From Paenibacillus daejeonensis DSM 15491 (lineage in GTDB: Bacteria; Bacillota; Bacilli; Paenibacillales; Paenibacillaceae): 64,000 bases of DNA. Of this stretch, positions 26,483 through 42,779 are shown piece by piece. Below the pieces are notes generated by a model. That model saw nothing but the letters and a program-made list of their open reading frames with translations, did no database searches and had not been told where the DNA came from. The translations under genes and the position numbers were made by a program. The stretch lies in contig NZ_KB899660.1 in NCBI RefSeq assembly GCF_000378385.1, positions 124,001-188,000 on the forward strand, read 5' to 3'. Position 1 is the stretch's first letter. Every line of letters begins with the position of its first letter.

Positions 26483-27316
26483 CTAGTCGAGCCAGCTGCG
26501 TACCAGTCTCAGCTGCTCGCGATGCGTACCATCTGCCTCCTTGGGCGTCTCCAGCACCAGTGGCAGATGGCGCAGACCCTCTGCCGTCACCAGCCGCCGC
26601 AGCGCATCGGTGCCAATACAGCCTTCACCCAGTCCGGCATGCCTGTCCCGGTATGACCCGCTGGGATGCAGCGAGTCATTGAGATGGACGGCAACCAGCT
26701 CAGCTAGAACCCCGGTATCCTGGGCCCGGCGCAGCCAGGACGCTTCATCCTGACCGTTCCATTGCCCGCTCGCATACAGATGGCAGGTATCCAGACAATA
26801 ACCGATCCCCTCTGGCTGTCTGGACAGCTGGCGAACCTGCGCCAGCTCTTCAACGGTCATCCCCATTCTCGCATGCTCGCCCGATTGGTTCTCAATGAGC
26901 AGCTTGGCCCTGCCCTGCCAGCCCTCCAGCGTGCGATCCAGCGACCTTATAATATTGCGGTAGCCCTGGAGCAGGTCGTCGCCTTTGTAAATCCCGAAGT
27001 GGACGACTACGCCCAGAGAGCCGCACGCCTCGGCAATCTCCAGATCGTTGCGCAGCGAGTCTACAACCCGCGTCATTTGTTCCGGTTCGTCAGCAGCCAG
27101 GTTGGCTGGATAGGAAGAGTGGGCAATCGACTGCAGCCCGTGCTCTCCGCAGTAGCGCGCACAACGTGCCGTGTCCGTCGCATCCCACGATTTCACAGTG
27201 AGACTGCGCGGATTTTTCGGAAAGTACTGAAAGGCGCTGGCCCCTTGCCGATGTGCCGCACGGGCCGCTTCATAATACCCCTTGCCGATACTGACATGAC
27301 AACCCGGATACGGCAC
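26483..27316 (-). CDS. nfo: Endonuclease IV (AP endonuclease family 2)
   Basis: 277 residues starting at GTG 27316 behind AGGAGGG. A TIM-barrel AP endonuclease that cuts 5' to abasic sites and trims blocked 3' ends. Zinc-ligand positions are visible: GCHVSIGKG at the N terminus, IAHSSYPANLA, VVHFGIYKGD, LLIENQSGE, YCLDTCHLYASG, VHLNDSLHPSGSYRDRHAGLGEGCIG and VLETPKE. The HFG (rather than HPG) and the HSSY (rather than HAPY) variants deviate slightly from the classical enzyme. It follows the glycosylase gene by 2 bp, placing two base-excision steps next to each other. Confidence 0.9.
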   Translation of the reverse strand: MPYPGCHVSIGKGYYEAARAAHRQGASAFQYFPKNPRSLTVKSWDATDTARCARYCGEHGLQSIAHSSYPANLAADEPEQMTRVVDSLRNDLEIAEACGSLGVVVHFGIYKGDDLLQGYRNIIRSLDRTLEGWQGRAKLLIENQSGEHARMGMTVEELAQVRQLSRQPEGIGYCLDTCHLYASGQWNGQDEASWLRRAQDTGVLAELVAVHLNDSLHPSGSYRDRHAGLGEGCIGTDALRRLVTAEGLRHLPLVLETPKEADGTHREQLRLVRSWLD

Positions 27317-27318
27317 GA

Positions 27319-28134
27319 CTATCCCTCCTGCTGACAGCTAGGACAATAGAATACCTTGCGTGAGTTGATTTCTTCGCGAACAATCTCGCTGCCGCAGCGT
27401 ACACAGGGCTCCCCACCACGATCATAGACTTGACAATGATCATTGTAGCCCCCCGTCAGGAGATCATCTGCCGTGAATGCATCCTCCATATAGCCACCCA
27501 GAGATGCAGCTTGCTGCAGCTTGGCGTGCATGCTGGCATACAATCGACTCCATGACTCATCCGAGAGTGCCGGAATTCGAGTACCTGGACGTACGCCAGC
27601 TGCAAAAGCGATCTCGTCAGCATAGCAGTTACCAATGCCGGCGATTACCTTCTGGTCGACCAGTGCACTCTTAAGCACACCTCTTTTGCCCTTGAAAAGT
27701 GCACGGAAGCGGGCTTCGGTGAGGCGGCTGTCAAAGGGCTCCGGCCCCAAATCCTTGAGCCGCTCGTCAAGCTCCTTGACGGAGAGCAGATGCAAATAAC
27801 CGAGGCGCAAGCCAATAAAATAAAGCTTGCCCTGCGGGAATGTCAACGTCACCTGGATCGTCCGGTCCGGTTTCTCCTCATCGGAACCGTAGAACAGCCA
27901 ACCGCCCAGCATCAGATGCAGCAGCAGCCGTTTGCCATTGTCCAGGTGGAAGATGAGATGCTTGCCCCTGCGTTCAATGAACCATACGGATCTGTCGATC
28001 AGCTCCGCCTTGAATTGATCGACCGGCATATTCACCGACTTCTCGCGCGTTACCTCAACATCCTGCAGCCGCGCTCCTGCTATCCGCTCCCCCAGCAGGG
28101 TGCGGTATCGTTCCATTTCCGGCCATTCCGGCAT
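27319..28134 (-). CDS. Fpg/Nei-family DNA glycosylase-AP lyase
   Basis: 271 residues. The catalytic Pro2-Glu3 is present, but the start reads MPEWPEMERYR rather than the classical MPELPEVE. The beta-hairpin lysine lies in ERRGKHLIFHL. The helix-two-turn-helix reads KVIAGIGNCYADEIAF. The C-terminal zinc finger has CVRCGSEI ... FYCPSCQ. All the residues for lesion excision and beta/delta elimination are there. The variant N terminus suggests a paralogue with its own lesion preference rather than the housekeeping MutM that is normally next to polA. The downstream neighbour is Nfo, which would process its product. Confidence 0.88.
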   Translation of the reverse strand: MPEWPEMERYRTLLGERIAGARLQDVEVTREKSVNMPVDQFKAELIDRSVWFIERRGKHLIFHLDNGKRLLLHLMLGGWLFYGSDEEKPDRTIQVTLTFPQGKLYFIGLRLGYLHLLSVKELDERLKDLGPEPFDSRLTEARFRALFKGKRGVLKSALVDQKVIAGIGNCYADEIAFAAGVRPGTRIPALSDESWSRLYASMHAKLQQAASLGGYMEDAFTADDLLTGGYNDHCQVYDRGGEPCVRCGSEIVREEINSRKVFYCPSCQQEG

Positions 28135-28171
28135 GGTTCATCTTCCTTCCTGTCCTCGTCGTTAGCTTCTC

Positions 28172-28990
28172 TTATCTCCCGAGCCGCTCCGAAATATACG
28201 TCTGCAGCTCGTGAAGATTCTCAAATATGACATCGGGCCGTACGCCCGCTTGCTCTACATAGGACGCCAAATTGTCTTGATTCGTAATGCCCGTCAGCAC
28301 CAGCGCCGTCGGACAGCCTGCTCCCACGCCGGCTGCGATATCCGTCAACAGGTTATCGCCCACCATCCAGGTCTGTTCGGCCGTGGTCCCCATGCGATCC
28401 AGAGCATAGTTCACCAGAATGCCGGATGGCTTGCCGATCACAACCGGCTTCTGTCCGCCAGCCGCTTGCAGGAGAGCCGAGATCGAACCTGACCCCGGAA
28501 TCACGCCGTCTTCCACAGGAAGCAGCAAATCCGGATTGGTTAGCACATAACGCGCACCGCTATGAATCAATCGCACGGCTCGCGTCAGACTCTCGTAGCT
28601 CAGATTCCGGTCCAGTCCCTGCAGCACGACATCTGCATCTGATTCAACCACTCGTAGTCCTGCAGTTGTCACTGCCTCGCGAAGACCGTCTTCGCCAATG
28701 ACGAATACGGCTGCTCCTGGCTGCTCCAACGCTATATACGATGCCGCCGCTTGCGCTGAGGTGCACACTTGCTCCGGTTCAGCCGGGATACCCATGGCTT
28801 GAAGCCTCGCCGCAAAGGTCTGAGGGTTAACCGTCGAGTTGTTGGTAACAAACAGATGAGGAACCCCTCTCGCAATCAAGGACGCGATCCATTCATCCGC
28901 CCCTTCAATCATGCGACCGCCATGATAGATGGTTCCGTCAAGATCGATGAGCAGACCGGCCGGGCTAGGCAGCTGTGCCGTCGATGTCAT
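28172..28990 (-). CDS. HAD-IIA family phosphatase (NagD/AraL-like)
   Basis: 272 residues. Motif I is LLIDLDGTIYHG (nucleophile and acid Asp pair), motif II FVTNNST, Lys in VVIGKPSG, and motif IV WMVGDNLLTDIAAG. The C2-type cap between motifs II and III marks subfamily IIA, whose members dephosphorylate sugar phosphates, pyridoxal phosphate or nucleotides. The substrate is not evident. It overlaps the dehydrogenase gene by 4 bp, so the two may act in one small-molecule pathway. Confidence 0.88.
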   Translation of the reverse strand: MTSTAQLPSPAGLLIDLDGTIYHGGRMIEGADEWIASLIARGVPHLFVTNNSTVNPQTFAARLQAMGIPAEPEQVCTSAQAAASYIALEQPGAAVFVIGEDGLREAVTTAGLRVVESDADVVLQGLDRNLSYESLTRAVRLIHSGARYVLTNPDLLLPVEDGVIPGSGSISALLQAAGGQKPVVIGKPSGILVNYALDRMGTTAEQTWMVGDNLLTDIAAGVGAGCPTALVLTGITNQDNLASYVEQAGVRPDVIFENLHELQTYISERLGR

Positions 28991-30087
28991 CGTGTCTGCT
29001 CCTCGGCACTGCTGCGCAAGACACGGTCAATCCAATATTCCACATGAAGTCCGTCAGCCAGACGCGGCGCAAGCTCGGGATAACGGTCCTCCCCGGCATA
29101 ACGTTGTATGTAATGATATAGCGCAGCAAAATGTGTATCGACCGCAATGCCCATCGTTGCCTTGTCGCCTGGCAACAGCTCCAGCGAATCGGGAACAGGC
29201 AGAATAGGAACGGAGCCTCTCACGAGATGAACCGTCGGCATTTGATCGCGTTCCAGGTCGGCTGTCATGCTGCCATGCGTTCCGACGATACGAATCTCAA
29301 AAGCCTCGGAGCCTAGTGCAATTCGCGATACTTCGACCGTGCCGCTGACACCGGATTCTGTCGTGTACTGCATCATCGCCCAATCATCCACTTCAGATGG
29401 TACATGTATCGTGGAGCCTGCAGATTCGGGCCTTGTTTTGACGTGAGCACGAGCTTGTCCGGTTACTTGCTGGTAATCACCAAACCAGTGCCGAATCATA
29501 TCCAGGGCATGCACGGCAAGATCACTCGTTGCACCGCCGCCTGACAGCCCGCCTTGCAAGCGCCAGCTCATCGGCCGCTGCGGATCAAGATATCCGGAAC
29601 GCCGGTACGAGATACTGCATTGTAGAATATCGCCCACCATGCCTTCGGCCAGGATGGAGCGAATGCGCATCACAGCCGGATGGTACCGGAAGGTGAAGGC
29701 CAGCTGCTCCGCGAGTCCGGGATATCGCTTGGCTTCCTCCAACAGCTGTGCCGAATTCGCGTACGTATCCGTAATCGGTTTCTCGCAGTAGATGCCCTTC
29801 CCTTGCGGCAGTGCCGCCATAACGTCCTCATAATGACGGCTGTTGGGTGTACAGATATCCAGCACGTGGACTTGATCGTCTGCCACTGCTTCTTGAACCG
29901 AATCTGTCACCCGGCGAAATCCAATCGCTTCTGCCTGGGCGCGATGCCGATCCGGCTGGCGCGTGACCAGTGTGTCCAGTACCGGCAGCAGCGGCAACGG
30001 TTTAATAATGGGCATCGTCCGCAGAGCGGTCATATGGGTTTTTGCAATATTGCCAAAGCCTGTGAAGGCAAATTGAATGGTAGTCAT
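28987..30087 (-). CDS. Gfo/Idh/MocA-family oxidoreductase
   Basis: 366 residues. N-terminal Rossmann fold FAFTGFGNIAKTHM for NAD(P), the CTPNSRHYE segment, and the catalytic-lysine motif YCEKPITD. The C-terminal alpha/beta domain has GGGATSDLAVHALDMIRHWFGD, which includes the usual D...H pair. These enzymes oxidise or reduce sugars and cyclitols. It overlaps both neighbours by 4 bp and sits oddly between repair genes. Confidence 0.9.
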   Translation of the reverse strand: MTTIQFAFTGFGNIAKTHMTALRTMPIIKPLPLLPVLDTLVTRQPDRHRAQAEAIGFRRVTDSVQEAVADDQVHVLDICTPNSRHYEDVMAALPQGKGIYCEKPITDTYANSAQLLEEAKRYPGLAEQLAFTFRYHPAVMRIRSILAEGMVGDILQCSISYRRSGYLDPQRPMSWRLQGGLSGGGATSDLAVHALDMIRHWFGDYQQVTGQARAHVKTRPESAGSTIHVPSEVDDWAMMQYTTESGVSGTVEVSRIALGSEAFEIRIVGTHGSMTADLERDQMPTVHLVRGSVPILPVPDSLELLPGDKATMGIAVDTHFAALYHYIQRYAGEDRYPELAPRLADGLHVEYWIDRVLRSSAEEQTR

Positions 30088-31472
30088 CGTTGTTTGTTCC
30101 TTTCCACTTTGGTGAGCAGCCGTTCTAAGCGTTTGCGTATTACTTCGCGATCCTGCTGCTTACGGCCTTTGCGGGACTCCTCGCGGGCTCCCGACATGGC
30201 AAAAGCAAGCTTGGCATAATACAGCGCCATCGGCAAATCCTTGCTCCGATGCTCATGGTACATAGCCAGCTCAATATGCGCTTCTGTAACCGCGCTGGCG
30301 GACTGCTCCGCTGCCTCGGCGGCCTTCTGCCACAATACCACAGCACGCTCCCAATTACCAACCTTCTTGTCTCTGGCAGCGAGCGGCAGGCACCAGTCTC
30401 CTGGCAGGACTGCAGGGTCCATCAGACGTGTGTAGAGAATCTCTGCATCTTCCGTTCTGCCCATCTTCTCCAGCCATAATCCGGTACGCAGCAGCTCCTC
30501 TGGCTGCTGCGGGTAAGGAAGCTCCCCACCGAGCGCACCGCTCAGCAGCTTGCCATAACGGATGGCCAGTGCCGCCAGGGAGAGCATGTCGATCTCGTTA
30601 TGCCGGAAGACAGCCTCGAGCGGCTGCGGATCGCGGTCCGCCAGGTACTGATAGTAGAGTGCCGGTGCCATAGATCCTGGTACATCGTCCTCTCGCCGGA
30701 TGCCGAGTCGCGCTTCCTCCACGCGGCTAAGCTTGCAGGAATCCAGGGTCTGACGCCATAAGCTGCGTGAGGGATGCAGAAAGTCAAAATGCAATGGCAC
30801 AGGCAGCCCCTCGCGATACCCATGCATGACATAACGGCCGGAGAGGGCTGGCCAGTCGAAGGTTTTGCCATTATAGGTAGCCAGATATCGCCTGTTCTGC
30901 AGCCAGCCGTGCAGATATCCCAGCATGGCCCGCTCCTCTGCGGGATGACGGATGAAGAGCTGCTCAATGACGAAGCACGACTCCTCCATATAACCCATAC
31001 CTACCATAAACGGAATCGTACCGGTTCCAGCTCCCAAGCCTGTGGTCTCGAGGTCCAGGAATAAGAGATCCTCCGGCCTTGGGGCGGGTAGGCCAGGGTG
31101 AAACGCTGCTAGTTCAGGCACGCTGCTATGCAGCTCCGATAATTGCTGATCGCCGTGTGCGTAATGCAGCGGATAACGCAGGCGCCGCCGCAAGAAAAAC
31201 TCACCCTCATGTGCGAGCATCTCGACGCCAAGCGCTTCCCAGCCTGGCTCCAGCGGATGTTCGTTGGGAGCTGAAGCATCTGCGGTCGGTGCTACGGCCG
31301 GTTCCTGTATGACCTCTACAGTTGCAGCCGACTCCCGTTCGGCTCCAGCAAGGCCTTCTGTAGTTGAGCCAGCGCTATCAGCTGACTCATCTTCGGGTCT
31401 GTTATCCTGAGTCTTCGGCTCTGGTGACGCAGCACCCAAGAGCCGGTTCATCCGGTCTCGTAAACCGCTCAT
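30084..31472 (-). CDS. mrfB: MrfB (YprB) DEDDh-type exonuclease
   Basis: 462 residues. An acidic, Ala/Ser-rich N-terminal tail (about 1-75) precedes an RNase H-like exonuclease domain. That domain has FLDLETTGLGAGTGTIPFMVG (first D-E pair), ATYNGKTFDWPALSGRY (next Asp) and RHNEIDMLSLAAL (final Asp). The C terminus is helical with TPR-like repeats (WLEKMGRTEDAEILYTRLM and following). In B. subtilis, MrfA and MrfB remove mitomycin C adducts by a route independent of UvrABC. Here mrfB overlaps mrfA by 4 bp, as expected for partners. Confidence 0.9.
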   Translation of the reverse strand: MSGLRDRMNRLLGAASPEPKTQDNRPEDESADSAGSTTEGLAGAERESAATVEVIQEPAVAPTADASAPNEHPLEPGWEALGVEMLAHEGEFFLRRRLRYPLHYAHGDQQLSELHSSVPELAAFHPGLPAPRPEDLLFLDLETTGLGAGTGTIPFMVGMGYMEESCFVIEQLFIRHPAEERAMLGYLHGWLQNRRYLATYNGKTFDWPALSGRYVMHGYREGLPVPLHFDFLHPSRSLWRQTLDSCKLSRVEEARLGIRREDDVPGSMAPALYYQYLADRDPQPLEAVFRHNEIDMLSLAALAIRYGKLLSGALGGELPYPQQPEELLRTGLWLEKMGRTEDAEILYTRLMDPAVLPGDWCLPLAARDKKVGNWERAVVLWQKAAEAAEQSASAVTEAHIELAMYHEHRSKDLPMALYYAKLAFAMSGAREESRKGRKQQDREVIRKRLERLLTKVERNKQR

Positions 31473-33757
31473 TGCCCCTCACCTGCCTCTCCGAGAAGTT
31501 CCAGCGCCTGCTGCTTGCCTAGCAAGCCGACCTCCTCGATTGGGCCAACACAGGCAGGACAGCCACTTAGACAGGTGCAGGAGGTAATATGATCGCGAGC
31601 CTGGCGCATCAGCTCGTCATGGACGTCGTAGAGCCGTTCACTGAGCCCAATGCCACCGGGGTAGCGATCATAGAAGAAAATTGTCGGCAGCTTGGAGTGC
31701 ACGGCCTTGACCTGCGGGACCACGCGAATATCCAACGGATCGCACATCAGATAGAGCGGCGCGATGTGAACGAGCACATTGGCGAGACCCAGCAAAGCCG
31801 ATTGCATCTCATCTGTAGTCTTGCGGGCGGCGGCCTCTTCATTGAAGGAGAACCAGTAGGAGCTCGTGTGCAGCTCCTCCTCCGGCAGATGAATCGGTCC
31901 GGAGCCGATATTCTCGTGCGTCCGCATCCGAATCTTTTTGAAGATCGTCGCCTTGGCATTGACCGTGACATCCCCGAACTGCCGCAGCAGCTCGCCGAAC
32001 CTGGACTCCTTATCTACATGCAGCACCTTGAGCTCGACCGCCATGTTAGCGTCGGTAAAATAATCGACATCTACCTCGCGGACGTACGCTTTTTTCTCGT
32101 GATAATCGAGCTTCTCCACCTGGTACTGCACACCTTCATGCAAGTAAATGGCTTCCTCGTGCACCAGTGTCGGCGCACTGAACCGGTCGACCTCACCCAG
32201 TACGCGATGCTCGGGCAGCGTCATATCGATAATGACCACATTTTCCTGTGCCGCAGAGCGCAGCGAGATGCCGTGGGCCGGGAAGGACTGCTCCATCCAG
32301 TACCAGCGGCTGCCTGACTGCGTCAGCACTTGGGCCTCTGTCAGGTATTCCAGCATATCGCGCAGCGATTCGCCTCCGAAGGTATCGCCTTCCTCGAAGG
32401 GCAGCTCGTACGCCGCACATTTAATATGGTCAATCAGAATGAGTAGATTATCGGGATGAATGAGTGCACGCTCCGGTGGCCGGTTAAAGAAAAAGTCCGG
32501 GTGCTGAATAATATATTGATCCAGCGGGTTGCTGCTGGCGACCATGAACGTCACGGCACTACCCTGGCGCCGACCGGCACGACCCGATTGTTGCCAGGTG
32601 CTGGCGATGGTTCCGGGATACCCGTTAAGCACGCATGCCTGCAGCTGGCCGATGTCGATCCCCAGCTCCAGTGCATTTGTACTCACCACACCGCGGATCT
32701 CCCCGCTGCGCAAGCCCTTCTCAATCTCCCGGCGCAGCTTGGGCAAATACCCGCCACGGTAGCCGCGAATCGTCTTCGTGCCGAACTCGCGGCGGACCAG
32801 CTCCTGCAGATACGTGAGCAAAATCTCAACACGAACGCGGCTGCGAGCAAATACGATCGTCTGAACACCCTGCTTGAGCAGCAAGGCTGCCAGCCGCTGC
32901 GTTTCCAGCACGCTGCTGCGCCGGATGCCGAGCTGCTTATTGACCACCGGCGGATTGTAGAACACAAAATGCTTTTCCCCCGCAGGGGCGCCGTTGTTGT
33001 CCACCAGCGTCACTTGCTCGCCGATCAGTCGCTCCGCATGCTCGCCAGGATTATCAATCGTAGCAGACGCGCATATGAATTGCGGTGAGGAGCCATAGAA
33101 CGTGCAGATTCGCTTCAGACGGCGAATGACATTGGCTACATGGCTTCCGAAGACGCCCCGGTAGGCATGCAGCTCGTCGATCACAATATACCTCACGTTT
33201 TCAAATAGCTTGACCCATTTGGTGTGATGCGGCAGAATCGCGGAATGCAGCATATCCGGATTGGTAACGACGATGTGCCCTGCATTGCGAATCGCGGTCC
33301 GGACGGTCGGCGGAGTGTCACCGTCATACGTGTGGGTTTTAATATCCACCTCCATCACGTCGGCCAGCTCCTGCAGCTCAGCTACCTGGTCCTGGGCCAA
33401 TGCCTTGGTGGGAAATAAGTAGAGTGCCCGGCCGCTATCCCGCTCCAGCAGGGATTGCAGCACCGGCAGATTGTAACACATGGTCTTGCCCGATGCCGTT
33501 GGCGTGACCGCTACGACATGGGAGCCTGCACGCACTGCAGCGTAAGCATCCCGCTGATGGGTGAACAGCTCCCCGATGCCGCGCTTCTGCAGCGCAGCCG
33601 CCAGACGAGGATCCAGATCGGCGGGCAGCGGTGCCGTCCGCGCGTCGCGGGGCGGTATCGTATGCCAGTGCGTCACGTTTTCCATGATTTCCCGCTGCGT
33701 ACGCACATGATCCAGCCAATCCTCCAGACTGGATGCCTTGCCTGTCCATCGGTTCAT
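31469..33757 (-). CDS. mrfA: MrfA (YprA) DEAD/DEAH-family helicase
   Basis: 762 residues. The superfamily 2 helicase core shows motif I TPTASGKTMCYN, motif Ia FPTKALAQDQ, motif II DELHAYRG, motif III SATI, motif IV VFARSR, motif V STNALELGIDIG and motif VI QSGRAGRR. The C-terminal DUF1998 region carries the four-cysteine cluster CTCLSGCPAC, which binds metal in MrfA. It unwinds damaged DNA so that MrfB can degrade it. First gene of a nine-gene operon. The ATG at 33757 follows AAAGGGGAGAACGAGCG. Confidence 0.93.
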   Translation of the reverse strand: MNRWTGKASSLEDWLDHVRTQREIMENVTHWHTIPPRDARTAPLPADLDPRLAAALQKRGIGELFTHQRDAYAAVRAGSHVVAVTPTASGKTMCYNLPVLQSLLERDSGRALYLFPTKALAQDQVAELQELADVMEVDIKTHTYDGDTPPTVRTAIRNAGHIVVTNPDMLHSAILPHHTKWVKLFENVRYIVIDELHAYRGVFGSHVANVIRRLKRICTFYGSSPQFICASATIDNPGEHAERLIGEQVTLVDNNGAPAGEKHFVFYNPPVVNKQLGIRRSSVLETQRLAALLLKQGVQTIVFARSRVRVEILLTYLQELVRREFGTKTIRGYRGGYLPKLRREIEKGLRSGEIRGVVSTNALELGIDIGQLQACVLNGYPGTIASTWQQSGRAGRRQGSAVTFMVASSNPLDQYIIQHPDFFFNRPPERALIHPDNLLILIDHIKCAAYELPFEEGDTFGGESLRDMLEYLTEAQVLTQSGSRWYWMEQSFPAHGISLRSAAQENVVIIDMTLPEHRVLGEVDRFSAPTLVHEEAIYLHEGVQYQVEKLDYHEKKAYVREVDVDYFTDANMAVELKVLHVDKESRFGELLRQFGDVTVNAKATIFKKIRMRTHENIGSGPIHLPEEELHTSSYWFSFNEEAAARKTTDEMQSALLGLANVLVHIAPLYLMCDPLDIRVVPQVKAVHSKLPTIFFYDRYPGGIGLSERLYDVHDELMRQARDHITSCTCLSGCPACVGPIEEVGLLGKQQALELLGEAGEGQ

Positions 33758-33796: not shown

Positions 33797-33825
33797 ATTC
33801 TACAGAATGCATGTTCGCTCCGCAA
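33797..33825 (-). promoter_or_regulatory. Promoter of the mrfAB operon with LexA-like box in the spacer
   Basis: Minus-strand TTGCGG (33825-33820), a 17-nt spacer and TAGAAT (33802-33797), about 40 bp upstream of mrfA. The spacer contains CGAACATGCATTCT (33817-33804), which matches 12 of 14 positions of the Bacillus LexA consensus CGAACRNRYGTTCG. Binding there would block RNA polymerase. Apart from this, the 364-bp gap between metH and mrfA holds a second box and the metH terminator; I see no gene in it. Confidence 0.6.
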
Positions 33826-33847
33826 TCCCGTTCTTGTCGAACAGCCG

Positions 33848-33861
33848 CGAACGGTCGTTTG
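33848..33861. promoter_or_regulatory. Second LexA-like box upstream of mrfA
   Basis: CGAACGGTCGTTTG, which agrees with the CGAACRNRYGTTYG pattern at all but one position. It lies about 23 bp upstream of the -35 of the mrfA promoter, a plausible auxiliary operator. Confidence 0.55.
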
Positions 33862-34121: not shown

Positions 34122-37100
34122 CTACACTTTTTCGACGTTGAAATATTGTGCCTCCGGATGTGCAAATACCATTGCCGATACTGAGGCCTCTGGCTCCATC
34201 ATAAAGCCCTCGGTCAACTCGATCCCGATATCCTCCGGCTGCATCAATTCGAACAGTGGCTGCTGATCTTCCAAATCCGGGCAGGCCGGATAGCCAAATG
34301 ATACGCGGATGCCCTGATAACGAGCACCAAGCCGCTGCTTCATAGTCATCTCTGGTGGATCTGGATAGCCCCATACATCCCGCATCATATGGTGGACGCG
34401 CTCGGCCAGACCTTCCGCCACTTCCAGAGCAACAGCCTGCAAGGCATGCGACCGCAAGTAGTCGCCATTGTCCTTGAGAATCGTGGCCCGCTCCCTTACG
34501 CCTTGACCGGCCGTAACGACGAGGAAGCCTACATAATCCATCTGTCCACTGTCCACTGACTTCAAGAAGTCAGCCAGACAGAGATGCGGCTCGACCTGCT
34601 GGCGAGGGAACGAGAACCGCTTGATCTCCTTGGAAGGATCAGCCGGATCGTAGATGATGATGTCGTTGCCTGACCCCTGAGCCGGGAAGAAGCGATACAT
34701 GGCATTAGCATGCAATGTCCCTTCAGTGGCTGCTTCCTTCAGCAGCTCATCCACTGTTTCCTTGAGCTGAATCACTTTCTGGTCACCCTTGGCAATTAAC
34801 TGATCAACATTGCCTCTGACACCCAGATGATGCCCCAGCAGCATCTGCATATTCACGTACGGAATGATCTGATTAATTGGAATCTCACGCAGCACATGCC
34901 GCTCCAGATCCGGTGGTGTGAAGATTGGAGCGTCCGGAGAAATCTTCGAGCGGACGGCGCGCGTCAGCTTCGGCAGCTCCTTCTTCTCCTCCACCTCTAC
35001 GCCGCCCGATGCCTTGAAGGCCGCAAGTTCTTCCTCCATCCCCCGGCGATGCTCCGGGTTCATCAGCTTGTTGGCAATATCCAGACCGTCCATCGCATCC
35101 TTGGCATACAGCACCAGGCCATCGTATTCCGGACCGATGCGGTTCTTCGTGAACTTGCGGGTCAGTGCCGCGCCGCCAACGAGAATCGGAGCAGCAATGC
35201 CAGCATTCCGCATATCCTGAGCCGTAATAACCATTTGCTGAGCCGACTTGACGAGCAGACCGGAGAGACCGATCGCATCAGCAGGCTCCTTGCGGTATGC
35301 TTCAATCAATTGCTCCGGCGGCACCTTGATGCCAAGGTTAATAATTTTGTAGCCGTTGTTGGAGAGAATGATTTCGACAAGGTTCTTGCCGATATCGTGA
35401 ACGTCACCTTTTACTGTTGCCAAGATAATCTTGCCTTTGACAGACGATTCGTTCTTCTCCATATATTGCTCCAGGAAGGCTACCGAGGCCTTCATAACTT
35501 CAGCGCTTTGCAGCACTTCAGCAACGATCAGCTCGTTGTTGTTGAACAAACGGCCGACCTCTTCCATACCTTTCATAAGCGGTCCGTTGATAATGTCCAA
35601 TGGCGCATATTTGTTCAACGCTTCAGTCAGGTCAGGAATGAGCCCCTCTTTTGTTCCTTCAACGACATAAGAGCCCAGACGTTCTTCCAGCGTCAGCGTA
35701 GAGATTTTCTCTTTTTTGTCAACCTTCTTCTCGCGGAAAAAGGCAACAAAAGCCGCCAGCGTCTCATCATTGGTATTGAAAATGAGCTCCTCAGCGAGTC
35801 GGCGCTCCTCTTCGGAAATCGAGGCATAACGCTCCAGCTTCTCCGTGTTGACGATGGCATAATCCAGCCCGGCTTTGGTGCAATGGTAAAGGTAGACAGA
35901 GTTCAGTACCTCACGGCCCGCATCAGGCAGACCAAAAGAAATGTTACTGAGGCCGAGAATCGTCATGACCTTCGGATACTTTTCCTTAATCATCCGGATG
36001 CCTTCGATCGTCTCTACCGCAGAGCCGATGTATTGCGGGTCACCGGAACCAACCGGGAACATGTTGGGGTCGAAGATAATATCCTCTTCCGCAATCCCAT
36101 ACTTGTGCACCAGCAGGTTGTAGGAACGTTCCGCTACCTCCATCTTCGCCTCGCGAGAGACAGCCTGGCCCCGCTCGTCAATCAGGATACAGACAACAGA
36201 AGCGCCATACTTATGAATGAGCGGCACAATGGCCTCGAATTTGGATTCCCCATCCTCTAGGTTAATGGAGTTAATAATCGCCTTGCCCTGCGAATATTTG
36301 AGGCCCAGCTCGATAATGTGGTCGTATGTCGAGTCAATAACGAGTGGGACTTTGACTTTTTTGACCACTTCCTGCAGGAAGGTCTCCATCGCATAAGCTT
36401 CATCTACATCCGTATCCTGCAGATTGATATCAATAACATGTGCGCCGTTCTTCACCTGGGCTCTGGCCACCTCGGAGGCTTCCTCAAACTTGCCTTCCTT
36501 GATCAGTCGCTTGAACTTGCGCGATCCGGAAATATTCGTACGCTCACCGACCATAATTGGACGATTATCCGCTTCAATGAATACGGGATCAATACCGGAC
36601 ACTGCCGGCGGGTGATCGCCCGCAATGGCACGCGGTACGAAAGCATCCAGCGTCTCCTTCATAGCACGGATGTGGTCCGGCGTCGTGCCACAGCAACCAC
36701 CGGCAATGTTCAGCCAGCCCTGCTCAGCAAACCCGGCAAGCTTGCGCGCCAGCGATTCCGGCGATTCATGATACTGTCCGTTCTCGTCGGGCAGACCTGC
36801 ATTGGGATAACAGCTGACTGCGGTGCGTGCAATGCCTGAAAGTGTCCGGATATGGTCACGCATGAATTCCGGACCGGTCGCACAGTTCAGACCAATCGAG
36901 ACCGGCTGCAGATGCTCCAGCGAGACATAGAACGCCTCGATATTCTGACCGGCAAGCGTCGTACCCATCGGTTCAATGGTACCGGAGATCATAATAGGCA
37001 GCTCTGTGCCCAATGTCTCGAACGCCTTGCGAATACCAATGCTGCCAGCCTTAACGTTCAGCGTATCCTGTGAAGTCTCCAAGAGGATGGCATCGACGCC

Positions 37101-41596: not shown

Positions 41597-41965
41597 TTAG
41601 AAAGGTATGATTAGGCTCTGTCCAGAGACCAGAGATGAGTTGGAAATCCCGTTACGTGACTGTAACAAATAGATCGCTTCACGAACGTCCATATTCTCCG
41701 GCATGTGAGTCTTGGCGATTGACCAGAGGGTATCCCCCGAGGATACAATCACCATCGTCTCATGCGCCAACGGCTCATACGTAGCAGGATTCGCGTAAGA
41801 ATCAACTAGCAGAACGCCAGACATCAGTATAGCGATCACTACAGCGATGACTGCAACCTTAGGCAGTATACTGACAGAGAGCCTGCGCCAACGTGAAGGG
41901 TTCGACTGTCTCTGATTTCTATTGGATACGTGTATGCTCCGGTACGAAGTTGTCTGCATGATCAT
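41597..41965 (-). CDS. yneA: YneA-like SOS cell-division suppressor with LysM domain
   Basis: 122 residues. A basic cytoplasmic head (about 1-32), one TM segment (about 33-53, VAVIAVVIAILMSGVLLVD) and an outside LysM domain (about 70-121, SSGDTLWSIAKTHM ... QSLIIPF) give the YneA plan. YneA delays septation during the SOS response. Divergent from lexA across a 184-bp region packed with LexA boxes, which explains its damage control. The ATG at 41965 follows GGAGTGATGAG. Confidence 0.88.
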   Translation of the reverse strand: MIMQTTSYRSIHVSNRNQRQSNPSRWRRLSVSILPKVAVIAVVIAILMSGVLLVDSYANPATYEPLAHETMVIVSSGDTLWSIAKTHMPENMDVREAIYLLQSRNGISNSSLVSGQSLIIPF

Positions 41966-41977
41966 TTCTCATCACTC

Positions 41978-42113
41978 CAAACATTTGTTCTGTTACGAGG
42001 TTATCACGAACACTTGTTTGGAGTCAAGCATTTTTAAGAACATTTGTTCTTTCTCCATAAATATCTGCGAACAGATGTTTTTCGGAACTTATGTTTGTAC
42101 GAACTCCGGTTCT
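41978..42113. promoter_or_regulatory. Six LexA boxes between yneA and lexA
   Basis: Matches to CGAACRNRYGTTCG or its close variants: CAAACATTTGTTCT (41978-41991), CGAACACTTGTTTG (42007-42020), AGAACATTTGTTCT (42037-42050), CGAACAGATGTTTT (42068-42081), GGAACTTATGTTTG (42084-42097) and CGAACTCCGGTTCT (42100-42113). The second lies in the spacer of the yneA promoter. The fifth and sixth overlap the -35 and spacer of the lexA promoter. Consecutive starts in the last three are 16 bp apart. Confidence 0.85.
42000..42027 (-). promoter_or_regulatory. Promoter of yneA
   Basis: Minus-strand TTGACT (42027-42022) with GATAAC (42005-42000) 16 nt away. A LexA box occupies the spacer. Confidence 0.65.
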
Positions 42114-42149: not shown

Positions 42150-42779
42150 GTGATTTCTGTGTCTAAGATTTCGAATCGCCAGCAATCTATACTTGAATTT
42201 ATAAAGACCGAAGTCAAGGAGAAAGGCTATCCACCATCCGTCCGAGAGATCGGAGAAGCTGTAGGTCTTGCATCGAGCTCCACTGTCCATGGTCACCTGG
42301 ACCGTCTGGAGAAGAAAGGGCTAATCCGCCGCGACCCGACCAAACCTCGTGCTATCGAGATTCTGGACCAGGAACAGGGCGAGCTACAATTCCCCTTGTC
42401 CATTTCCAAAGTCCCTGTTGTCGGCAAAGTAACTGCAGGCATTCCGATTACAGCTACGGAGAACATTGAAGAATACTTCCCGCTCCCTACCCACTTTGTA
42501 GGCGACAATCAAGTGTTCATGCTGAATGTTGTCGGCGAGAGTATGATTGAAGCAGGCATCCACAACGGCGACTACGTCATTGTCCGCCAGCAGCAGACTG
42601 CCAACAACGGCGAGATCGTCGTCGCAATGACGGAGGACGACGAAGCGACAGTGAAGACCTTCTATAAGGAGAAGGATCACATCCGCTTGCAGCCTGAGAA
42701 TGCTACCATGTCTCCGCTCCTCTTGAAGCGCGTGACCATTCTCGGACGAGTCATCGGCGTGTTTCGCGACATTACCTAG
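42150..42779 (+). CDS. lexA: LexA SOS repressor
   Basis: 209 residues starting at GTG 42150 after GGAGTG. The N-terminal winged-helix DNA-binding domain is 1-70 ([23 protein letters not shown]). The cleavage bond is Ala93-Gly94 in KVTAGIPI. The peptidase dyad is Ser128 in [10 protein letters not shown] and Lys166 in [10 protein letters not shown]. RecA filaments stimulate self-cleavage, freeing the boxes upstream and elsewhere, including probably those at mrfA. Followed by a hairpin at 42800-42825 and a stronger terminator. Confidence 0.98.

Follow-up and report, generated by a model that had tools for sequence, protein, structure and literature searches.

MrfAB is presented as a mitomycin C pathway apart from UvrABC, and a protection phenotype is described for it in B. 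subtilis (PMC11194089). The yprA gene is counted among repair genes (PMC1976550), and yprA and yprB are in the list of a Tn-seq screen (PMC6051672). The LexA box of B. subtilis is CGAACN4GTTCG, and uvrBA is reported to be SOS-induced in this bacterium (PMC9578287). The locus described here raises the question of whether MrfAB is under SOS control as well. A first-pass annotation of a stretch of Paenibacillus daejeonensis DSM 15491 DNA had pointed out two LexA-like boxes, named here site 1 and site 2, at the promoter of an operon led by mrfAB, and had proposed that this lineage wires the pathway into SOS. The stretch, referred to as the window, is 64,000 nucleotides long and corresponds to G000:C2:124001-188000 of the 7.46-Mb genome. 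The main text of PMC11194089 and that of PMC12458937 (MrfB, YprA helicases) contain neither SOS nor LexA; in the passages of PMC12345164 MrfAB and LexA are both named and not connected, and those of PMC13192584 and PMC13388538 do not tie yprA to LexA. The literature searched, which consisted of sources other than the Au 2005 regulon list, Burby 2019 and Groban 2005, holds no link between mrfA/yprA and LexA in the portions available, and an earlier publication of such a link is possible.

The features of the locus are collected in Table 1. The product of mrfA has an SF2 helicase core and a C-terminal MZB Zn-binding domain (PF09369, 80.6 bits, cut-off 24.2), and it matched the YprA chain in PDB 6znp with 1084.8 bits; the score against the nearest NCBIfam model, TIGR03817, was 682.5, below the cut-off of 874.1. 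The adjoining gene encodes a DnaQ-like exonuclease domain (PF13482, 126.3 bits, cut-off 22), by which it was taken as mrfB (yprB), and its product had no match among the NCBIfam models. The genes from mrfA to nfo overlap or are separated by gaps of at most 37 nt, and this spacing suggests that they form one transcript. Gene order was surveyed by tblastn (at least 60 residues) at the loci of 22 relatives. The mrfB gene followed mrfA in all 22 loci, and the mixed adduct and base-excision run (26483-33757 in the window), with the Fpg/Nei-type and nfo genes after mrfAB, was found in 21, the other one being without nfo.

Table 1. Features at and around the mrfA promoter and the lexA locus, in window coordinates
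Feature	Position	Strand	Evidence and context
nfo, endonuclease IV	26483-27316	minus	TIGR00587, 168.6 bits, cut-off 129.65; 21/22 relatives' loci
Fpg/Nei-type DNA glycosylase gene	27319-28134	minus	Fapy_DNA_glyco, H2TH, zf-FPG_IleRS; 22/22 relatives' loci
HAD-family phosphatase gene	28172-28990	minus	19/22 relatives' loci
Gfo/Idh/MocA-type oxidoreductase gene	28987-30087	minus	between mrfB and HAD gene; 7/22 relatives' loci
mrfB, exonuclease	30084-31472	minus	RNase_H_2, PF13482; overlaps end of mrfA
mrfA (yprA), helicase	31469-33757	minus	MZB PF09369, DEAD, Helicase_C, WHD_HRQ1 above cut-off
-10 element TAGAAT	33797-33802	minus	sequence read; -10-like hexamer kept in relatives
Site 1, LexA-type operator (predicted) CGAACATGCATTCT	33804-33817	minus	inside mrfA promoter spacer; conserved in relatives
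-35 element TTGCGG	33820-33825	minus	sequence read; TTG kept in relatives
Site 2, LexA-like box CGAACGGTCGTTTG	33848-33861	read on plus	0 mismatches to CGAACNNNNGTTYG; score 14.7
yneA-like LysM protein gene	41597-41965	minus	LysM; PRK14125 YneA, 53.3 bits, slightly below cut-off 60
Six LexA-type boxes	41978-42113		between yneA-like gene (minus) and lexA (plus); in-window reference
lexA	42150-42779	plus	TIGR00498, 263.7 bits, cut-off 110.95

The intergenic gap between mrfA (start 33757) and metH, which lies upstream on the same strand and ends at 34122, is 364 bp long. The first-pass annotation had read in it a promoter composed of TTGCGG, a 17-nt spacer and TAGAAT, with site 1 located in the spacer and matching the Bacillus LexA consensus at 12 of 14 positions. 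The coordinates of these elements are correct on the minus strand, where the spacer occupies 33803-33819, and the two mismatches of site 1 to CGAACNNNNGTTYG both fall in the right half-site. TTGCGG agrees with TTGACA at only three of six positions, and the mrfA promoter was missing from the output of a standard promoter scan.

The window contains 127 two-mismatch matches to CGAACNNNNGTTYG, against a mean of 94.6 in shuffled sequences. Mismatch counting was rejected as the sole test, being too weak at these numbers, and therefore a position matrix was used. The matrix was built from 58 distinct boxes (183 in total) with no more than one mismatch to the consensus. These came from the upstream regions of 30 lexA and 30 recA loci, those of the own genome among them, and none was taken from mrfA. 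The background consisted of 463,727 positions, corresponding to 400 kb of the own genome and the window; the rates are conservative because two of the 20 background stretches had been picked for holding the recA and recN-run boxes. Site 1 scored 11.3, a value reached or exceeded at 25 positions of the background, with site 1 and true boxes counted. The score of site 2 was reached or exceeded at 13 positions, with site 2 counted. About 0.02 and 0.01 positions per 364 bp are expected at the ranks of site 1 and site 2, respectively. Scoring with a LexA weight matrix, one of the checks that the first-pass annotation had proposed, came out in favor of both boxes. Among the positions that outscore site 1 are the recA box, the entire set of six lexA boxes and the pair before the argR-recN run. 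That site 1 is a chance match was ruled out by its rank taken together with its conservation in relatives, described below.

Counts of LexA patterns over the whole genome showed no enrichment over reversed controls, a result that weighs against the LexA reading. The pattern CGAACNNNNGTTYG was found 17 times on the forward and nine times on the reverse strand of the 7.46-Mb genome, and the reversed pattern 42 and 50 times; the values for CGAACNNNNATTCK were 13 and 18 against 20 and 27. Many of the CGAACNNNNGTTYG and CGAACNNNNATTCK places fall within ORFs, and some of the short ORFs that were counted as covering sites are probably not genes, among them the ones that span the recA and mrfA sites.

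LexA and RecA are both encoded in the genome (TIGR00498, TIGR02012), and lexA and the yneA-like gene stand back to back in the window. The class to which site 1 belongs can be read from the company it keeps. Its form, CGAACRTRYATTCK, occurs at only five places in the genome: in the recA promoter, 73 nt before recA (TIGR02012); 272 nt upstream of an ORF for a Y-family polymerase (L139, 1501-1514; PRK03103, IMS domains); in the mrfA promoter; about 1 kb from a recombinase-like ORF; and before a small ORF. A box of the recA class was present in all 30 recA upstream regions scanned, with C and G as outer bases in 29 of them and an A at the start in the remaining one. The recA box (CGAAC-N4-ATTCG) has the same asymmetric pair of half-sites as the mrfA box. 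Since the recA upstream regions share the box class, the ATTCK right half-site, which seems defective when compared with the textbook consensus, is normal for the LexA boxes of the group. The mrfA boxes of the closest relatives (clade 1, defined below) mostly end in T (48 of 60), whereas the recA box has a G at this position.

The right half-site of site 1 differs from GTTYG at two positions, and its affinity for LexA may be modest. Then, it could be argued that LexA binds the mrfA box weakly, that MrfAB is mostly constitutive and that SOS adds little. Both mismatches lie in one half-site and the matrix score of site 1 is lower than those of the six lexA boxes, as this argument would have it, and LexA-bound genes reportedly outnumbered induced ones in a 2005 study of B. 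subtilis. However, recA, a standard SOS gene, carries a box of this class in the same genomes. Furthermore, the mrfA box is kept across two families, a persistence that would be puzzling for a site without effect. We consider an operator of so little consequence unlikely.

Boxes of related kinds were also seen at other loci. Two LexA-type boxes with scores of 14.8 and 16.9 (L267, 16970-17013, the same place as L010, 1501-1514) precede a run composed of an ORF of 152 codons of unknown function, argR (PRK04280) and recN (TIGR00634). CGAACN4GTTCG was found at L006 and L021 (1501-1514 in both), before a short ORF and a YolD-family gene; these two and the L139 box probably belong to translesion cassettes. 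A recA-class box scoring 15.2 (L419, 1501-1514; G000:C6:16249) is located 67 nt before a gene of the nucleoside-deaminase family (PF14437, PF00383), which by eye resembles that of a tRNA adenosine deaminase.

To follow the box in relatives, mrfA was sought in 117 genomes, own included. Matches were found in 84, of which 82 were orthologues and two had only a 32% relative. The orthologues were divided by MrfA identity into clade 1 (n = 60, at least 72%, window included) and clade 2 (n = 22, 61-65%). A box was called when a score of at least 10 was found within 250 nt before the start of the match, and stretches further upstream were used as controls. After removal of six upstream regions with identical last 200 nt, 206 of 212 were kept. 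A box was present in 59 of the 60 clade-1 sequences, the last one scoring 9.5, with controls at 1/60 and 1/59, and in 20 of the 22 clade-2 sequences, with controls at 1/22 and 0/22. Looking for the same boxes upstream of mrfA in related genomes, which had also been proposed in the first-pass annotation, showed that site 1 is kept. One of the two clade-2 exceptions, G006, has a box scoring 11.3 at -345 together with a promoter of the clade-1 type. The other, G002, has a weaker box of 8.7 at -641, ahead of an intervening ORF. By eye only, this ORF (L105) resembles a MazG-type pyrophosphohydrolase.

Outside these clades, the named genomes had a box in 56 of 75 unique sequences (controls 5/74 and 1/74). 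The 19 sequences that score below 10 include Geobacillus (3), Anoxybacillus, Sporosarcina (2), Paenisporosarcina, Priestia flexa, Kroppenstedtia, Scopulibacillus and clostridial or other MAGs. The box was present in 20/20 fetched genus-Bacillus sequences (control 0/20) and in 27/29 of the best 30 of the same family (controls 0/27 in both cases). The two misses in the latter set are L350, which has only 95 nt upstream, and L330 (G500), which belongs to the genus Bacillus by placement; seven of the eight members of the genus in this set have the box. In a Bacilli-wide sample MrfA was found in 204 of 398 genomes, and among the best 30 of the 204 MrfA matches 24 had a box (control 1/30). A set of 20 genomes chosen from other families of Bacilli had the box in 3/20, no better than the control (2/20). 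Conservation of the box upstream of mrfA orthologues was thus seen in five sets with controls and was not seen in the sample from other Bacilli families; the five sets share species and ancestry and their counts are not independent events. These results suggest that mrfA is broadly under SOS control in Paenibacillaceae and Bacillaceae, although not universally. The restriction to "this lineage" in the first-pass annotation was too narrow, as most of the Paenibacillaceae and Bacillaceae sequences examined have a box at mrfA, and a lineage-specific rewiring is ruled out by its presence across both families. What stood of the earlier proposal is the LexA-type operator itself, by its class, its place and its conservation.

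The clade-1 promoters are highly regular. The TTG of the -35 element lies 6-8 nt before the box (T in 57/60, T in 58/60 and G in 53/60), and a -10-like hexamer starts one or two nucleotides past the box in 58 of 60 rows, so that in the window and in these rows the box overlaps or adjoins the promoter. L031 is one of the two rows outside the 58; the script took another upstream match and the spacer box is present. Columns 1-5, 7 and 10-13 of the box hold one base at 90-100%, and columns 6, 8 and 9 show the transitions A/G, A/G and C/T. The 14-mer sits in the promoter spacer in 58 of the 60 rows, as one would find if it belonged to the promoter itself or were bound by a regulator other than LexA. 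However, base-by-base conservation is unusual for promoter spacers, the same class of 14-mer is present at recA, and in seven of 20 clade-2 promoters the LexA-type box is found after TATAAT, at a distance of 2-6 nt (in two more it is 1 nt after). This explanation is very improbable. The operator is kept while its position shifts, and this favors a repressor site, more than the promoter sequence, as the target of selection. Taken together, the box class shared with recA, the placement at the promoter and a conservation far above the controls strongly support a LexA-type operator at mrfA.

Site 2 behaved differently from site 1. It is located 22 nt upstream of the -35 element, close to the approximately 23 bp given in the first-pass annotation, and 44 bp from site 1. 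Two boxes (scores of at least 9 within 250 nt) were found in only three of the 82 sequences, and no box with such a score was present at the position of site 2 in the sequences of the other 81 relatives, including the closest one by MrfA (96%). The first-pass annotation had used the two sites as joint evidence; given the lack of conservation of site 2, this argument was dropped. In L154 and L155, two of the named sequences, a second box was also seen, but it is a different one and lies close to the start codon. Site 2 may have arisen recently as a second operator, or may be a product of chance. We give an even chance to its being a match without function: besides its lack of counterparts in relatives, CGAACNNNNGTTYG occurs 21 times in the genome, 12 times within ORFs of more than 150 codons, whereas a perfect match to the consensus with one of the highest matrix scores of the background, lying this close to site 1, is not what a random occurrence would lead one to expect.

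The question then arises of whether the box is present in B. subtilis. The G525 protein is identical to the YprA chain of 6znp at 102/102 residues of the compared segment, while other members of the genus have 67 to 100 identities out of 102; on account of this identity G525 was taken as B. subtilis, which it almost certainly is. The mrfA promoter of G525 has CAAACAAATATTCG at the equivalent place, before a -10-like TAAACT, and the identical 14-mer was found in all 20 fetched genus-Bacillus sequences. The pattern CRAACNNNNATTCG has 12 places in the G525 genome against 26 for the reversed control, and nine of the 12 are within longer ORFs. The three intergenic places are at recA (TIGR02012), at mrfA and before an ORF of 130 codons. 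Very likely, site 1 is a true operator of LexA and mrfA is the lead gene of an SOS operon, in an arrangement that is widespread and includes B. subtilis.

The history of the gene and that of its promoter appear to be separable in some genomes. When 63 MrfA proteins (the window, 13 other loci and 49 of 80 named sequences) were placed in a quick tree, the clade-2 MrfA proteins of Paenibacillaceae fell inside Bacillaceae with Niallia (98) and clade 1 was separate (95). Clade-2 mrfA is found at the same locus, with the order mrfB-HAD-fpg-nfo kept and metH ahead in the two loci that reach that far. In G098, G001 and G007 (L083, L093, L102) clade-2 mrfA stands behind a promoter of the clade-1 type (ATTGC, box, TANAAT), and in G006 (L106) such a promoter with its box is 345 nt away. 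Four other loci (L091, L095, L096, L097) have a CTAG(C/T)CA, box, CTA(A/C)A(A/C)T promoter near the B. subtilis form. The combination seen in G098, G001, G007 and G006 suggests that the coding sequence was replaced in place.

The switch, as we infer it from the sequence, position, class and conservation of the box and from the order of the genes, would operate as follows. An intact LexA dimer on CGAAC-N4-ATTCT would sit over the spacer DNA of the mrfA promoter, excluding RNA polymerase. Upon DNA damage, activated RecA would promote the self-cleavage of LexA and the operator would empty, allowing transcription of mrfA and mrfB along with the downstream genes for the HAD phosphatase, the Fpg/Nei-type glycosylase and endonuclease IV. 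Site 2 would be a private addition that may tighten repression. This control would be old and common to Paenibacillaceae and Bacillaceae, B. subtilis too, instead of a local rewiring. The mrfA operator would work by an ordinary mechanism, and its reach is wider than the first-pass annotation held.

When compared with the B. subtilis LexA (DinR) regulon and its CGAACN4GTTCG operator, mrfA is alike in box class and in the position of the box at the promoter, and lexA-yneA and recA of the Paenibacillus group carry the same kind of box. The difference is that mrfAB is not tied to LexA in the literature found, the 2005 list being outside the search. The proteins resemble B. subtilis MrfAB (YprAB), with the MZB domain and an HRQ1-type winged helix in MrfA and RNase_H_2 in MrfB, whereas the run in the window adds the HAD, Fpg/Nei-type and nfo genes and has an SOS box in front. 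We lean, by a modest degree, toward the full account in which mrfAB is an ancient SOS operon that was overlooked in B. subtilis, the Paenibacillaceae promoter drives adduct and base excision, and the switch outlived the replacement of mrfA in some genomes.

SOS control of MrfAB becomes directly testable in B. subtilis. If LexA controls MrfAB, one alarm would raise two excision pathways, MrfAB and uvrBA, and the mitomycin C phenotypes of the mutants would need to be read with induction taken into consideration. If the account is true, the Fpg/Nei-type glycosylase and endonuclease IV of Paenibacillaceae would be under SOS control as well. MrfAB, studied as a stand-alone repair pathway, probably belongs to the general DNA-damage alarm.
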